This document shows, piece by piece, positions 43,951 to 55,489 of a stretch of DNA of 55,618 nucleotides (its first letter is position 1; the number at the start of each line of letters is the position of its first letter). The notes under the pieces are model-generated. The model had not been told where the DNA came from. It ran no database searches and saw only the letters and a program-made list of their open reading frames with translations. Position numbers and translations under genes: made by a program. Origin of the DNA: Clostridiales bacterium CHKCI006 (GTDB lineage: Bacteria > Bacillota_I > Bacilli_A > Erysipelotrichales > Coprobacillaceae); the NCBI GenBank assembly GCA_900018345.1, contig FCNA01000134.1, positions 1-55,618 of the forward strand, written 5' to 3'.

Positions 43951-44029
43951 AATTTATTTATAAATATGTACACCTAAGTATTTGTTATTAAAACAATAGA
44001 GGATGCTTATTTTTATACCTTTTTTAGCT

Positions 44030-44058
44030 TGACAATACAAGTTTCAGGAAGTAAGATG
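44030..44058 (+). promoter_or_regulatory. Promoter of the PTS gene
   Basis: TTGACA at 44030-44035 and TAAGAT at 44053-44058 with a 17-base spacer. It overlaps the alternative upstream start of the PTS frame and so supports ATG 44083. No antiterminator (RAT) site with a terminator is seen in the leader. Confidence 0.7.
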
Positions 44059-44082
44059 TACGTACAGGAAAGAAGGGGTAAG

Positions 44083-45784
44083 ATGGCGAAATATGAGCAT
44101 GAAGCAAAGGTCGTTTTAGAAGTGGTTGGTGGAAAAGAGAATATTCAATCGTTAACGCATTGCATGACACGTTTAAGATTAGTACTTAATGATGCATCGA
44201 AGGTGGACAAGACGCAGATCGCTGCGCTTACAGCAATCAAGGGGACAGCGTTTCAATCCGGACAGTTTCAGATCATCATAGGAAATGATGTCAAGGCATT
44301 TTATGAGACGCTACAGGACTTGTTAGGTGAGCGCCGCGTGAGTGATCAGGGTGCACTCAAGGATCAGCTCATGCGCTCGATCGGAGATGTTTTTGCCCCT
44401 TTGATTCCAGCTATCATCAGTGGGGGATTGATGTTGGGGTTAGCGGATCTTGTCGGTGCCCAGCTGGGAACACTCTTCCATTTGCTTGGAACGACTATCT
44501 TTACTTATTTGCCCGTTGGTATTGTGTATGGAGTGGTACAGAAGCTGGGTGGAACGCCAATCTTAGGTATCGTATTGGGCCTGGTACTGTGTTTAGAGAA
44601 AATCGGCTATGCAGGCAGTGTGATGGTAGCCATTCTGGCGGGTCTAGCGCTTGGCCTGATCGAAAAGGGTTTGCGCAAAATTTGTCCAGACAGTATCAGC
44701 ATGCTTCTAGTACCTCTATTGAGCTTAGTAATCAGCTGTGCGCTTGTGCTGGCAGGATTAGGACCGCTTGGCAGCTGGCTGGATTCTACCTTATCGAGGG
44801 GGCTGTATCTGTTATTGATCAGTCCGGCAGGACTGCTGGTATCCTTCGTGCTTGGTGTCGGTTATGTGTGTCTGGTGATGACAGGCATGCACCATCTGAC
44901 CTTGCCTTTAGATCTGATCTTTATCAGCGGTTATGGGTATACCATGCTGTGTCCATTGCTGGCGCTATGCAATATTGCGCAGGCTTCCAGTGCGCTGGGA
45001 ATGTATGTGCTGCAATATAAAGACGCGAGAATTAGAAAACAAAATCGTGAGGCCTGTATTTCCTGTTATCTGGGGGGTGAGCGAACCCGCTTTATTTGGA
45101 ATCAATCAGAAATATCGTTATCCGCTCTATGCTGGCATGATTGGGTCAGGAGTCGCCTGTTTGCTGGCCAATGGGTGGCAAGTGAAAGCTTTGAGTGTCG
45201 GTATCGGTGGGTTAGCTGGTATCTTTTCTATCGAGGTTGTCGACTGGCTGCATTATCTAATCTGTATGAGTGTGGCAGTGGGATTACCGATTGTACTGAC
45301 TTTAGCTATCGGACTCATAAAGAAGTCTAGGCATGAGGTCTTCCTTTCACCAGCTGAGGGTATCGTCCATCCGTTAAGTGAGGTACCTGATACCGTCTTT
45401 GCCAGTGGGATGATGGGCGAAGGATTGGCCATTGAGCTAGTCGGTGAGACGATTTATGCACCGATGAGCGGCGAAGTGAGCATGATTTTCCCTACGAAGC
45501 ATGCCTATGGCTTGAAGCTTTCTGATGGGTCAGAAATATTGATTCATATTGGCTTGGATACTGTGGCACTCAATGGACAAGGATTTGATTGTCGGGTCGA
45601 AGCAGGGCAAACAGTTAGACAAGGGGATATTCTTTGCATTATTGACCGCGCTTATATTCTTGAGCAAGGGAAATCCCTGATGACACCGATCGTTTGGACG
45701 GATCATCAGACCATCACGCTTGTTAGAACAGGGAGAGTTCAGGCTCAAGAAAAGGGTCTTGTCCAAAAAGTGGATAGATCTTAA
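44083..45784 (+). pseudogene. PTS sugar transporter EIIBCA, glucoside/trehalose type, one-base frameshift
   Basis: Two frames together encode one EIIBCA protein of about 567 residues. ATG 44083 has GAAGGGG upstream. EIIB: SLTHCMTRLRL with the phosphorylated Cys27. EIIC: about ten membrane segments. Frame one goes off sense at a run of six G (45072-45077); with five G it reads YLGVSEPALFGIN, the substrate-binding GxxEPALFG loop, and passes into the second frame. EIIA at the C-terminus has SPAEGIVHPLSEV, HAYGLKL and the active His in LIHIGLDTV. It would import and phosphorylate a beta-glucoside, sucrose or trehalose; no hydrolase or antiterminator gene is adjacent. A G-run indel is either an error or a phase-variable site. 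Confidence 0.85.
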
Positions 45785-50143: not shown

Positions 50144-51040
50144 TCAGCTTTGCGTTGGCTGATGCTGAACATATTTGGCATAGTATTCTTCCAAAGTATG
50201 AATGCCTTCGTCATGCATGGTCGTACTGGCTTCTACGCCGACATAGGTAATATGCCATGGTTCGTATTGATAGCCGGTAATGTCTTCGTAACCCTGTTCG
50301 TAACGAATGATAAAACCATATTTATAGGCATTGGCATGAACCCAGGTACATGCTTTAGTGGATTCAAAAGACTCCAGGGTGCCATCTGGACCCATAAGGT
50401 CAATGGTTCGTCCCGTGTGATGCTCACTCGAAGCCGGTCTGGAGCTATAGGTATCTGCGGCTTCAGCCCCATCTCTTTCGACATAACGGTTATAGAGTCC
50501 GACCTGATAATCAATGGAGCGGTAAGTTGAAGCAGCCGAAATGCCTGTAATGCCTTCGGCTTTGGCATCTGCTACCATTTTTTCATAGGCGGTCTTCGTA
50601 TTGGGTGTTACTAGTTTACCATTTTGTGTTTCTACCAGTTCAGCAGGCTCGAATTCATCCCGATAACAATAATGCTTATTCACAAGCAGTACTTCATTGT
50701 TTTCTTCGCTCTCCGGGATGACCTGCAGATTTGTGTAGGGTTCCTCATCCAAGTGAACGTTGACCATCCAGACAACATCTTCCTCGGCTAGTTCAGGATG
50801 TAATGCCTGGTAAGCTTCATAGCGTGCCTGATTTTCTGGCTCATAATAGTAGAGCGCTTCAATACCGGTCTTGGTTTCCGTTTCCTGGTTATTAGATGCA
50901 TCTAAAGCCGTATCTGTATTCCTTTTTTTGTGATCTTTCAAAAGGAAGATCCCCCCAATAACGAGTCCAATGACAACGACAAGTCCGATGATGACAAGGA
51001 TCAAGCGGTCTGTACGCAGCCTTTTTTTCTTTTTAGCCAT
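50144..51040 (-). CDS. D-Ala-D-Ala carboxypeptidase, VanY/M15B type
   Basis: A 298-residue protein with AGAGGTG before ATG 51040. A basic start and one membrane anchor (LILVIIGLVVVIGLVIGGIF, residues 13-32) place it outside the cell. The M15B zinc site is complete: SSEHHTGRTIDL carries the first His and Asp, and EPWHITYV the catalytic Glu and last His. Such enzymes cut the terminal D-Ala of peptidoglycan stems and limit cross-linking. VanY relatives can also aid glycopeptide tolerance, but no other van genes are here, so this is a general wall enzyme. Confidence 0.9.
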   Translation of the reverse strand: MAKKKKRLRTDRLILVIIGLVVVIGLVIGGIFLLKDHKKRNTDTALDASNNQETETKTGIEALYYYEPENQARYEAYQALHPELAEEDVVWMVNVHLDEEPYTNLQVIPESEENNEVLLVNKHYCYRDEFEPAELVETQNGKLVTPNTKTAYEKMVADAKAEGITGISAASTYRSIDYQVGLYNRYVERDGAEAADTYSSRPASSEHHTGRTIDLMGPDGTLESFESTKACTWVHANAYKYGFIIRYEQGYEDITGYQYEPWHITYVGVEASTTMHDEGIHTLEEYYAKYVQHQPTQS

Positions 51041-51416: not shown

Positions 51417-51480
51417 GTATTATGAAGAAAAGGGTTGATTTTTTTCTATCATTATGATAAAGTCTTATTCGACCTCATGC

Positions 51481-51717
51481 GAAGGGGTAGAGGCGCGATG
51501 ATTAAGAGTAGCCTGAAGGAGACCGAAAGTCGATGAATTCAGGAGAAAGGATGAGTCGCCGAAGTCAGTGAGTCAAATCACTGGCTGGGGGCATATTTAA
51601 GAGATATGTCACTGTCTTTATGACTGCCAATCATAAAGGAGCACTATCTTAAGGCATATAAGGAACGCGGCGGTTTCAGTGCGTCTTTACATGTTTTAGG
51701 ATGTGAAGGCGTTTTTT
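51481..51717 (+). promoter_or_regulatory. Lysine riboswitch (L-box) with terminator
   Basis: The aptamer at 51481-51652 shows the L-box core in order: AGAGGCGCGA, AAGAGTA, the GAAAGGATGAGTCGCCGAAG segment around 51546-51576, CTGGCTGGG, TGACTGCCA and the closing GCACTATCTT. The expression platform is a transcription terminator, CGTCTTTACAT (51682-51692) with ATGTGAAGGCG (51701-51711) and six T, just before the transporter gene. A promoter with TTGATT (51435-51440) and TAAAGT (51458-51463) may start it. With this layout lysine binding should favour the terminator and switch the operon off. Confidence 0.93.
51682..51717 (+). terminator. Riboswitch terminator
   Basis: An 11-base stem (51682-51692 with 51701-51711, two G-T pairs) and six T, lying 25 bases upstream of the transporter start. 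Confidence 0.85.
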
Positions 51718-51741
51718 CGTTGTGGAAAAGGGGGAAACCGA

Positions 51742-53130
51742 ATGCGTAAGTTCAAATTTAAACTAAAAATGCCGCACACTTATGTGATCATTTTTGCCAT
51801 CGTTGTACTGGCTGCAATCGTTGCGAATGTGATCCCAGCCGGTGAATTTAGTCGTGTGGTGGATGAGACAGGCCGTGAAGTGGTTGTACCTGGCTCTTTT
51901 ACTTATTTAGAGTCCGTCGGCTGCAGCTTCTTTGATGTGTTTGTCTCCGTCCAGCAAGGCTTTATTTCCGGAGCTCAAATTATTTTCTTTATTATCTTTG
52001 CCTATGCGTTTGTCTACATGTTGATCAAAAACGGTACATTTGATGCCGTCATTGGTCTGATGCTGCGTAAGATCGGCAATAACATTCATCTAATCATTCC
52101 ATTGTGTATGTTGACCTTTGGCTTGCTTGGCTCAACCATGGGCATGTCCGAAGAGACCTATGGTCTTCTGCCGGTCTTTATCTCCATTGCCTGCGCTTTG
52201 GGGTATGATGCTATTGTAGGTGGATCCATCGTCTATGTGGCCGTTTCTGTTGGCTTTGCCTGTGCAACGCTGAATCCTTTTACGATCGGTGTGGCTCAGC
52301 AGGTAGCGGGCGTACCGCTTTATTCTGGTCTGGAATATCGTATTCTGATCTTTGTGATCTATATGACGGTAGCAATCGCTTATGTCTGGCATTATGCCAA
52401 TAAAGTTAAAAAGGATCCAACGAAATCTATTTTATATGGAACGGATATTGATCTAGTCAAGGTTGATTCGCAGGAAGAGCTGATCAAACGCGAGATGACG
52501 ACAGTCCAGAAGATCAGCTGCCTTCTGTTTGTGGGGACGGTTGTCATGCTGGTGTATGGGACCATTCAACTGGGCTGGTACATTGATCAGATCGCCGGTT
52601 TATTTATTTTAATGATGATTGTTGTCGGATTGATCTCTGGCTTTTCACCAAGTCGTATTTCAGAATATTTCATCGAAGCGGCTAAAGATATGATGTATGG
52701 CGCTTTGATCGTTGGATTGTCCAGAGCAATCCCAACGATTCTGGAAAATGCCATGATCATCGATACGATCGTTTACTGGCTCAGTCAGATGCTGATGAAT
52801 TTCCAGGGAATCTTCAGTGCCATCGGCATGCTCTTTGTTCAAAATGTCATCAATTTCTTTATTCCATCCGGAGGCGGACAGGCCTTAGTGACGATGCCGA
52901 TCTTAGCACCGGTTGCAGAGATGGTCGGACTCAGTCGTCAGATTGCTGTTTTAGCTTATCAGTTAGGGGATGGCTTCTCAAATATTTTCTGGCCAACCTC
53001 CGTCTTTATGATGTGTGGGATCATGCGTATCCCTATCAATAAATGGTATCGCTATATTACGCCATTATTTTTGATTTGTTTTGTGATCGAGATCATCTTA
53101 TTATCAGTAGCTGTACTGATTGGTTATTAG
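51742..53130 (+). CDS. YfcC/DcuC-type transporter under lysine riboswitch control
   Basis: A 462-residue membrane protein, ATG 51742, AAAGGGGG at 51728-51734. About twelve membrane segments are seen. It begins with the family's MPHTYVIIFAIVVLAAIVAN and PAGEFSR segment, then GLLGSTMGMSEETYGLLPVF and, in the second half, FFIPSGGGQALVTMPILAP and QLGDGFSNIFWPTS, which are the paired re-entrant substrate loops of YfcC/C4-dicarboxylate carrier-like proteins. Some members are annotated as basic amino acid antiporters. The riboswitch implies that the substrate is lysine or a source of it. The M20 amidohydrolase gene follows ten bases later, in the same operon. Confidence 0.9.
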   Translation: MRKFKFKLKMPHTYVIIFAIVVLAAIVANVIPAGEFSRVVDETGREVVVPGSFTYLESVGCSFFDVFVSVQQGFISGAQIIFFIIFAYAFVYMLIKNGTFDAVIGLMLRKIGNNIHLIIPLCMLTFGLLGSTMGMSEETYGLLPVFISIACALGYDAIVGGSIVYVAVSVGFACATLNPFTIGVAQQVAGVPLYSGLEYRILIFVIYMTVAIAYVWHYANKVKKDPTKSILYGTDIDLVKVDSQEELIKREMTTVQKISCLLFVGTVVMLVYGTIQLGWYIDQIAGLFILMMIVVGLISGFSPSRISEYFIEAAKDMMYGALIVGLSRAIPTILENAMIIDTIVYWLSQMLMNFQGIFSAIGMLFVQNVINFFIPSGGGQALVTMPILAPVAEMVGLSRQIAVLAYQLGDGFSNIFWPTSVFMMCGIMRIPINKWYRYITPLFLICFVIEIILLSVAVLIGY

Positions 53131-53140
53131 GAGAGAAAAA

Positions 53141-54307
53141 ATGAAAACAGAATTGAGAGAAAGAATTCTTCAGACAGCAAAGGATATGATGCCTTTATTT
53201 GTCGAAGTACGAGAATTTATCTATGATCATGCAGAGCTGGGCAACCAGGAATTTGTCAGCAGTCAATATCTGGTTGATCAGATGAAAAAACTGGGCTTCA
53301 CAGTAACCTATCCGTACTGTGATCTGGCGACAGCCTTCCGGGCAGAGCTGGTTTTAGGTGAAGGGCCTAAGGTCTGCTTCATGGCTGAATACGATGCCCT
53401 GCCAGGGTATGGACCAGCCAAGGATCAGGTACGCCATGCCTGTGGACACAACTGGATCGCTGCTTCCACGCTGGGAGCCGCTGCTGTGCTCGCTAGTCTC
53501 AAAGACACTCTTTCCGGAACAGTTGTTTTGATTGGAACACCGGCTGAAGAGACCATGGGCGGAAAATGTGATTTAGTTAACCGTGGTGGTTTTGATGATA
53601 TCGATGCCTGCTTCCAAATGCATTTAGGGGCTGAAAATAACATCGAAGTCACGAGTCTGGCGATGGACTCCGTGCAGTTTGATTTTACCGGAAAGGCAGC
53701 GCATGCAGCGGCCTATCCTGAACAGGGCATTAATGCCTTGGATGCTGTCATGTTGACATTTGCGGGAATCAATGCCCTGAGACAACACATGAAACCGGAT
53801 GCGCGGGTACATGGTATTGTCACTAAAGGTGGGACGGCATGCAATGTCGTTCCGGATCAGGGACAGTGTCAGTTCTATATTCGTGCCGCTAAACGCGCTT
53901 ATCTGGAAGAACTGACCGAAAAGATCATCAACTGTGCCAAGGGTGCCGCTCTGATGACCGGATGTGAGCTGGAGTATCATTTCTTTGAAAACTCTTATGA
54001 TGATCTGGTGTATCATGAAGGATTGCGTCAACTTTTACGCAAGAGTCTGGAAAGTCTTGGAGTCACACATTTTATCAAACCGGAAGGCAATGCGACCGGG
54101 TCAACGGATGTTGGTAATGTCTCCCATCGCTGTCCAACGGTTTACTGTGAGCTCGATACAGGGGCTTTTCCGAAGGTTTATGCGCATCATGAAAGCTTCT
54201 TGGACTATGTGCATACTTCACGCGCCGATCATAGCTTATTAGTCGCTGTGCAGGCGATGGCGCTGGCAGCTGCCTCAGTGATGCAGGATCCATCTATTCT
54301 CCAATAA
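53141..54307 (+). CDS. M20-family metallopeptidase/amidohydrolase
   Basis: A 388-residue cytoplasmic enzyme, AGGAGAG before ATG 53141. Metal and catalytic residues of the M20D amidohydrolase group are visible: CGHNW (His ligand), the catalytic Glu pair in PAEETMGGK, MHLG, the HAAAYPEQGINALDA dimerisation domain start, and the terminal YAHHESF. Family members cleave N-acyl amino acids, aminobenzoyl-glutamate or N-acetyl-diaminopimelate. Lying under the lysine riboswitch with a transporter, it probably releases lysine or diaminopimelate from an imported acyl or peptidyl form; this is inference. It ends in a terminator that overlaps the convergent MFS gene. Confidence 0.9.
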   Translation: MKTELRERILQTAKDMMPLFVEVREFIYDHAELGNQEFVSSQYLVDQMKKLGFTVTYPYCDLATAFRAELVLGEGPKVCFMAEYDALPGYGPAKDQVRHACGHNWIAASTLGAAAVLASLKDTLSGTVVLIGTPAEETMGGKCDLVNRGGFDDIDACFQMHLGAENNIEVTSLAMDSVQFDFTGKAAHAAAYPEQGINALDAVMLTFAGINALRQHMKPDARVHGIVTKGGTACNVVPDQGQCQFYIRAAKRAYLEELTEKIINCAKGAALMTGCELEYHFFENSYDDLVYHEGLRQLLRKSLESLGVTHFIKPEGNATGSTDVGNVSHRCPTVYCELDTGAFPKVYAHHESFLDYVHTSRADHSLLVAVQAMALAAASVMQDPSILQ

Positions 54308-55489
54308 TAAACAAAAGACAGGTATCATTTTGATATGATCCTGTCTTTTTTCGTCCTCTGGAAATACCGAAACAAAGCAGCAGACAGAGAAGCGTAGCCC
54401 CGGCATAAAGATAATAGGTAATGACATAGCCCTGGATACCAGGAATCCGTTCCAGCAGATATCCATAGCCAATCTGCACAAATAGTGGAAAGATACCTTT
54501 GGCCAACATGCCATAGGCGGTATTCAAATATTTTTCCTCTACGAGGTTTAAGATTACCTTGACGGAGGCAATCAGAATGAAGGTGTTAGAAATGCTTTGC
54601 AGAAAGAATCCGTAGAGGATCCATTGCGGATCGGGTAAGAGGGCATACCAGCCGAAGCGGAAGGTAGCGATGAGGCAGGCAAAAATGAGAATGCTGCGGT
54701 AATGGAACCGTGCCAAAAGACGATCAGTGATAAGATAGACGGGAATATCGGCTAAGGAAAACAGTAAGGGAGCTGTTCCAACCAGGGCTGTTGAAGCCCC
54801 ATTTTCCTGCATGTAGAGTGGAAAGGAGATGCCCTGGGAGGTGGCAACCCCCTGGTAGAGGCAATAGATCAGCACAAAATAGAGAAAGGCTTTATTGGTG
54901 AAGAGGTGTTTGAAGATCGTCTTCGTCTGGGTTTTCTCTTTTTTAGGCAGGCTTGTTTTCTGGTCACGCATCTGATACAGGCAGAAAAGCATGGCCAGCA
55001 GACTGAGTGCAAAGACAAAGTAATGGGCTTGCGGAAAGAGTATTTCGTAAATCATGCCGCTGACCTGTGCACCGATGGCATACGCGACAGACCCCCATAG
55101 CCGAATGCTGCCATAGCCATAAGGGCAGGCGGTCGCTAAGCGATCGGTCAGGATCACAAGTCCGTTCAGGAATCCCTGGGTCAGCCCATTGAATAAGAAA
55201 AGCAGGAAAAAGGCGTGGGTGGATGCGAACGCAATACCGGTGCAGATCGCCAGTACGCCACATCCGATCGAAACGATCTTAGGGGATTGAATTTTATCGG
55301 CAATCAGATTGCAGATGGGTTGGGTAACGATCGCAAAAAGGCTGAAAGCAGAAGTGACAAGTGAGATTTCGCTTGTGGATAAGGATTCGCCGGCCAAATA
55401 GACCGTAATCATACTGGCGAACATCGCCCGGGAAAAATAGAAAAGGGCGTTGGCAGCAGCGTAATAAAAGTAGCTATTTTTTTGAACAT
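54294..55489 (-). pseudogene. MFS transporter, start codon out of frame by one base
   Basis: About 398 residues and twelve membrane segments (for example SYFYYAAANALFYFSRAMF and GSIRLWGSVAYAIGAQVSGM, the LacY/nucleoside-symporter-like MFS_1 motifs). GGAGGG is seen five bases before ATG 55489, but that frame reads MFKKIAT and stops being sensible; adding one A to the run of seven at 55477-55483 gives MFKKNSYFYY, a natural start that leads into the long frame. Without this the long frame has no good start. The final 15 or so codons run through the terminator of the opposite gene. Substrate unknown, possibly a sugar or nucleoside. The upstream leader has a GC hairpin (CCGCGC/GCGCGG, 55505-55522). 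Confidence 0.75.
54313..54352 (+). terminator. Terminator of the lysine riboswitch operon
   Basis: AGACAGG-ATCAT pairs with ATGATCCTGTCT (54316-54328 with 54335-54346), then six T. It lies inside the coding end of the convergent MFS gene. Confidence 0.8.

Follow-up and report, generated by a model that had tools for sequence, protein, structure and literature searches.

A lysine riboswitch, a YfcC-family carrier and an HmrA/PM20D2-like amidohydrolase: a possible operon for the salvage of conjugated lysine

The window, by which we mean the whole 55.6-kb stretch of DNA analysed here, comes from a Holdemania relative of the gut and carries a compact unit made up of a riboswitch leader, the gene of a secondary carrier and the gene of an M20D amidohydrolase, with a gap of 10 bases between the two genes. 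The features of the unit are as follows.

51480-51654, + strand: complete lysine riboswitch aptamer, RF00168 (cmscan 111.3 bits, E 6.5e-29, model positions 1-182 of 182)
51485-51490 and 51644-51649, + strand: P1 strands of the lysine aptamer, from the RF00168 match
51633-51645, + strand: predicted 5' strand of an antiterminator, AUAAAGGAGCACU, pairing with 51678-51690 (duplex prediction)
51681-51712, + strand: intrinsic terminator hairpin (about -15.6 kcal/mol), then TTTTTCG
51742-53130, + strand: YfcC-family (DcuC, PF03606) secondary carrier, 462 aa, from profile matches, with AGGGGG before the ATG
53141-54307, + strand: M20D amidohydrolase, HmrA/PM20D2-like, 388 aa (TIGR01891, PF01546, PF07687)
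54313-54350 (approximate), no strand assigned: terminator hairpin closing the unit (fold -17.8 kcal/mol), at the 3' end of a convergent MFS gene

RF00168 is the sole Rfam family above threshold in the whole window. The preliminary description of this DNA had read a lysine riboswitch ending in a terminator just before the transporter, had placed the unit at 51481-54307 and had proposed an Rfam comparison as a check; the comparison bears this reading out, with a covariance score of 111.3 bits over the full aptamer against a gathering score of 30 bits, and the coordinates are correct to one base. The leader (51470-51760) folds with an energy 4.4 standard deviations below that of shuffled sequences (z -4.4). 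Within it, 51633-51645 overlaps the P5 3' strand and the first two bases of the P1 3' strand, and its predicted partner from the duplex search, AGUGCGUCUUUAC at 51678-51690, is the 5' arm of the terminator, positions 51681-51689 being common to both structures. The antiterminator and terminator pairings are mutually exclusive, which is the layout expected for an OFF switch acting on termination and agrees with the OFF-type arrangement first described. By analogy with its riboswitch family, the aptamer would bind lysine and switch the genes off. An unconstrained fold of the whole leader favoured the terminator state, as is expected when kinetics are left out of the calculation. An antiterminator register shifted by one base pair gave a poor fold and was discarded, the duplex search having returned the correct register. 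Terminators also lie upstream of YfcC in the five relatives examined, and the antiterminator duplex is clear in some relatives only. A search of the + strand upstream of the aptamer for a sigma-70-type promoter gave no match.

The carrier matches PF03606 at 291.6 bits (Pfam gathering score 23.1). Its best NCBIfam model is NF008611, YfcC, at 297.9 bits, which is below the cut-off of 500, and we therefore name it a YfcC-family carrier and not a YfcC equivalog. The structure model (pLDDT 83) returned general matches within the ion transporter superfamily, the best being AbgT-type MtrF and YdaH with a TM of about 0.6, too weak for a substrate to be named from structure. NCBIfam calls YfcC a putative basic amino acid antiporter, and a relevant comparison is ArcE, which we take to be a member of PF03606 as YfcC is. 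ArcE of S. pneumoniae (TC 2.A.118) takes up arginine and ornithine with micromolar affinity, has a high affinity for lysine and exchanges free basic amino acids (PMC5300872); it resembles YfcC by description, as part of a basic amino acid exchanger family within the ion transporter superfamily, and differs from the window carrier in serving arginine deiminase. The antiporter name might also suggest that the carrier exports something at low lysine, in keeping with the pH control that is discussed for NhaC (PMC11477304) and proposed for NhaC-type LysW genes. Such a role in export or pH control offers no reason for an adjacent hydrolase that stays linked across lineages, and we regard it as very improbable.

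The M20D product scores 246.1 bits against TIGR01891, for which the curated cut-off is 153.75, and also matches PF01546 and PF07687. The metal and catalytic residues C101, H103, E136, E137, H161 and H349 are present, and the alignment shows all six to be kept in 29 of 29 rows of the Lys clade, to which the window enzyme belongs, as well as in HmrA and PM20D2. Over the whole chain, its AlphaFold model (pLDDT 94.8) lies closest to S. aureus HmrA (PDB 3ram; Z 49.1, 35% identity) and human PM20D2 (PDB 7yh4, 8xzc, 8zel; Z 48.8, about 33% identity, metal ligands kept), with the next family at Z 38.5; by whole-chain structure it matches the PM20D2/HmrA-type dipeptidases with a clear margin over other M20 enzymes. 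HmrA is reported as a Met-X dipeptidase, going by a title cited in PMC11511702, and PM20D2 is described as a beta-alanyl-lysine dipeptidase. By analogy, the substrate of the window enzyme would be a dipeptide or a similar amide.

The preliminary description had proposed a salvage hydrolase that releases lysine or diaminopimelate, for example from murein turnover or diet. The salvage hydrolase itself gains from the nearest characterised relatives, which cut small peptides, one of them beta-alanyl-lysine, whereas the murein and diaminopimelate part loses ground. None of the DapE-type models comes anywhere near its cut-off (TIGR01900 18.8 against 304.2, NF009557 20.8 against 284, TIGR01246 19.6 against 361.8), and DapE structures match the enzyme model at Z 29.6 and below. 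A gene for a VanY/LdcB-like carboxypeptidase lies divergent from the unit in the window (50144-51040, - strand), and a search for this gene beside the unit in relatives gave no matches. An M20D deacylase, acting on N-acyl lysine or N-acetyl-diaminopimelate from murein turnover or diet and feeding the lysine/diaminopimelate pathway, would suit this carboxypeptidase neighbour in the window and the presence of deacylases among TIGR01891 amidohydrolases, and a passage of PMC11511702 counts M20D enzymes such as HmrA among the aminoacylases. However, dipeptidases are the nearest relatives both in structure and in sequence, the DapE comparisons are poor and the neighbour is not conserved, which together make a deacylase improbable and murein, N-acetyl-diaminopimelate and N-acetyl-lysine less likely as substrates.

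Two positions separate the Lys clade from some of its relatives; the sister clades under methionine and arginine T-boxes are described below. At position 283 every enzyme of the Lys and Arg clades has Glu, as against Gln in HmrA and throughout the Met clade, and at position 286 the residue is Tyr or Phe as against Val; HmrA, reportedly a Met-X dipeptidase, is unlike the Lys clade in having Q and V in place of E283 and Y/F286. The window's Y286 aligns with PM20D2 Tyr314, which is described as a residue mutated for crystal work. PM20D2 is unlike the Lys clade in having Ala at the E283 position, and the Lys clade has an extra loop at 92-98. Since PM20D2 does without this Glu and about half of the Lys-clade enzymes have Phe at position 286, any part of these residues in recognising the side chain is tentative, and in view of PM20D2 a lysine-binding role of E283 is kept as a lead only.

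The full unit of riboswitch, YfcC and M20D occurs in five of the 148 genomes of the order (the source genome, G000, together with G057, G010, G141 and G133), and the named loci of the window's clade come from Holdemania, Merdibacter, Solobacterium and other Erysipelotrichaceae. Among 80 named YfcC loci the riboswitch lies directly upstream in 26, and M20D follows in 23 of these, on contigs of Erysipelotrichaceae, Oscillospiraceae and other Clostridia; two of the other three contigs stop inside YfcC and the third, from Desemzia (L137), has YfcC alone. A more distant copy of the unit is found in four genomes of another family (f12) in the window's class, and in the Alkaliphilus order riboswitch and YfcC occur together in 12 genomes, 11 of which have M20D too. 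The three-part linkage, which the preliminary description had suggested looking for in related genomes, is thus kept within the order, in the 23 named contigs and in two further lineages. The lysine switch is not a general trait of YfcC, as no riboswitch was found at the best 30 YfcC loci among 291 genomes sampled from the class of Alkaliphilus; none was found at the less similar YfcC loci of the window's own class either.

At Solobacterium loci M20D forms a tandem array of two or three copies. At four loci of Solobacterium type (L094, L116, L117, L119) three diverged copies stand behind one lysine-switched YfcC, and these tandem copies possibly serve different lysine conjugates. L115 (1678-1843, - strand) and L118 (1684-1847, - strand) each have a second lysine riboswitch, on the opposite strand and some 2.5 kb upstream. 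In genome G077 a lysine riboswitch (L104 3342-3514, - strand) is followed by an apparent ABC amino-acid transporter with binding protein, permease and ATPase, which is probably a lysine transporter.

The combination of riboswitch, yfcC and M20D is already known from C. difficile and is not new. The CD3100-3099 genes, yfcC and an M20D amidohydrolase under a lysine riboswitch, present the same three parts in the same order as the window, with the function of YfcC listed as uncharacterised in a review (PMC11477304). With this pair already in print, the view that it falls outside the known lysine regulon, as the window was first described, finds no support. YfcC and DcuC go unmentioned in a 2017 survey of 468 lysine riboswitches, which gives LysP/GabP, LysW, YvsH and LysXY as transporters. 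The units of the Alkaliphilus order carry another YfcC subclade than the window and presumably resemble the C. difficile unit. What is added here is the wider distribution, the constant M20D with two YfcC subclades, HmrA and PM20D2 as nearest structures, and sister clades under methionine and arginine T-boxes; the open-access literature searched gave no report of how widely the unit is distributed, of its constant enzyme or of the parallel methionine and arginine units.

Between the Alkaliphilus-order unit and the window, M20D is 51-54% identical and YfcC about 36%. Apart from the four of family f12, all lysine-switched enzymes fall into a single clade of the M20D trees, together with a few unswitched copies. 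Mapped on the YfcC trees, the lysine label has to change at least five to six times; part of both sets are quick trees without bootstraps. The separate lysine-switched YfcC groups are the main clade, the Alkaliphilus-order clade, f12, G104 and Desemzia, which suggests that lysine control was gained by several YfcC lineages, of which two share one M20D clade. The stronger conservation of M20D and its single clade, set against the scattered YfcC, point to the enzyme as the constant partner of lysine sensing. The constant part is one orthologous M20D clade, joined to two distinct YfcC subclades. Two loci have YfcC and M20D and no detected switch: the riboswitch was not found upstream at L132, and at L113 none lies in the 195 bases upstream, where the contig ends. 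The riboswitch has likely been lost in both.

The reading that we favour, with slightly more confidence than doubt, is that of a lysine-repressed salvage operon. With lysine plentiful, the aptamer would be bound and P1 held closed, and the terminator at 51681-51712 would stop transcription; with lysine scarce, the 3' part of the aptamer would pair with the terminator's 5' arm, and both genes would be transcribed. The YfcC-type carrier would import a small lysine compound, most likely a dipeptide or an amide of that kind, from which the M20D enzyme in the cytosol would release lysine by hydrolysis, closing the loop. Among YfcC loci outside the lysine set (Bacillota, Fusobacteriota, Synergistota), 24 of 29 adjoin an amide hydrolase, be it M20 of several subfamilies, carbon-nitrogen hydrolase or amidohydrolase 1/3, and the occurrence of three unrelated folds beside one carrier family suggests that YfcC carriers import amides. 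It is plausible that YfcC carries a lysine conjugate rather than free lysine.

The carrier could also import free lysine, as an exchanger or symporter in the manner of ArcE, while M20D separately acts on peptides brought in by general peptide transporters and sets their lysine free; the two would share no substrate and would both be switched because both raise lysine. We hold this to be possible and rather doubtful. The affinities of ArcE and its exchange of free basic amino acids (PMC5300872) count for it and against salvage, as do the lysine-switched YfcC genes without M20D in G104 (L096), in Desemzia and at L290, which free-lysine import would predict, and it would also suit an enzyme clade that is served by two distinct YfcC subclades. 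However, the hydrolases beside most non-lysine YfcC genes are easier to understand if the carrier delivers the hydrolase substrate, and the two genes are closely spaced in the window and adjacent in relatives. The salvage operon also has to accommodate YfcC with M20D lacking the riboswitch at L132 and a stand-alone Lys-clade M20D in G077 (L097 3541-4728). The source genome has a second lysine riboswitch before lysC-dapA-dapB-lysA-like genes (G000:C164, L098 6192-10359, - strand); to judge from these genes the organism probably makes its own lysine, so salvage would not be essential.

The identity of the residue released can be approached through the sister clades of the enzyme. Met-clade M20D genes lie directly behind T-boxes, with the specifier AUG (methionine) in ten loci (L068, L070, L074-L077, L081, L083, L085, L086), and in a wider cut of the L068 place (L103) M20D is followed by metN/metI/metQ-like genes. 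The source genome itself has a second HmrA/PM20D2-like M20D, a member of the Arg clade, behind ABC amino-acid transporter genes, under a T-box with the specifier CGC (arginine; G000:C96, L099 3578-7416, - strand); the CGC T-box was seen in four genomes, counting L218, L219 and L220. We read the specifiers by aligning the T-boxes to the Rfam consensus. The ABC transporter genes near the T-box M20D genes were identified by their translated products and not by a profile search. HmrA groups in the tree with the Met-T-box M20D clade of this order, and its reported methionine specificity fits the T-box of that clade, so that sensor and specificity agree where specificity is known; this agreement leads us to predict, from the lysine riboswitch, that lysine is the product of the window enzyme. 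PM20D2 itself came out with the Arg-T-box clade, but on a long branch, and we draw nothing from this position.

A related arrangement is metQ-hmrB-metNP of S. pneumoniae, a transporter and an M20 hydrolase induced by methionine shortage (PMC5359408). It and the Met-T-box M20D genes are like the window unit in joining a transporter to an M20 hydrolase that is switched on when one amino acid is scarce, and unlike it in concerning methionine and not lysine, in using an ABC transporter and not YfcC, and in being governed by a T-box or CmhR and not a riboswitch. Overall, sensor and enzyme specificity appear to travel together across the M20D clades. A broader proposal, in which our confidence falls a little short of even, is that the HmrA/PM20D2-type dipeptidases of Firmicutes have diverged into amino-acid-specific enzymes, each placed under a matching RNA sensor (lysine riboswitch, arginine T-box or methionine T-box) and beside an unrelated transporter, such that the RNA would reveal the residue released and, by extension, the cargo of YfcC.

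Few of the many YfcC carriers and M20D amidohydrolases have been characterised. The tie of a lysine sensor to one enzyme clade, across several carriers, yields a testable prediction, namely lysine as the product and lysine dipeptides or amides as the substrate, for which the parallel methionine and arginine units provide internal controls. If the prediction is true, the salvage of conjugated lysine would become part of what gut Firmicutes control by lysine, and this would extend to the C. difficile unit, which is listed as being of unknown function. Elsewhere in the window, two overlapping ORFs in different frames (44029-45784, + strand) together resemble one PTS IIBCA gene of the beta-glucoside type, an apparent frameshift, pseudogene or sequencing error.
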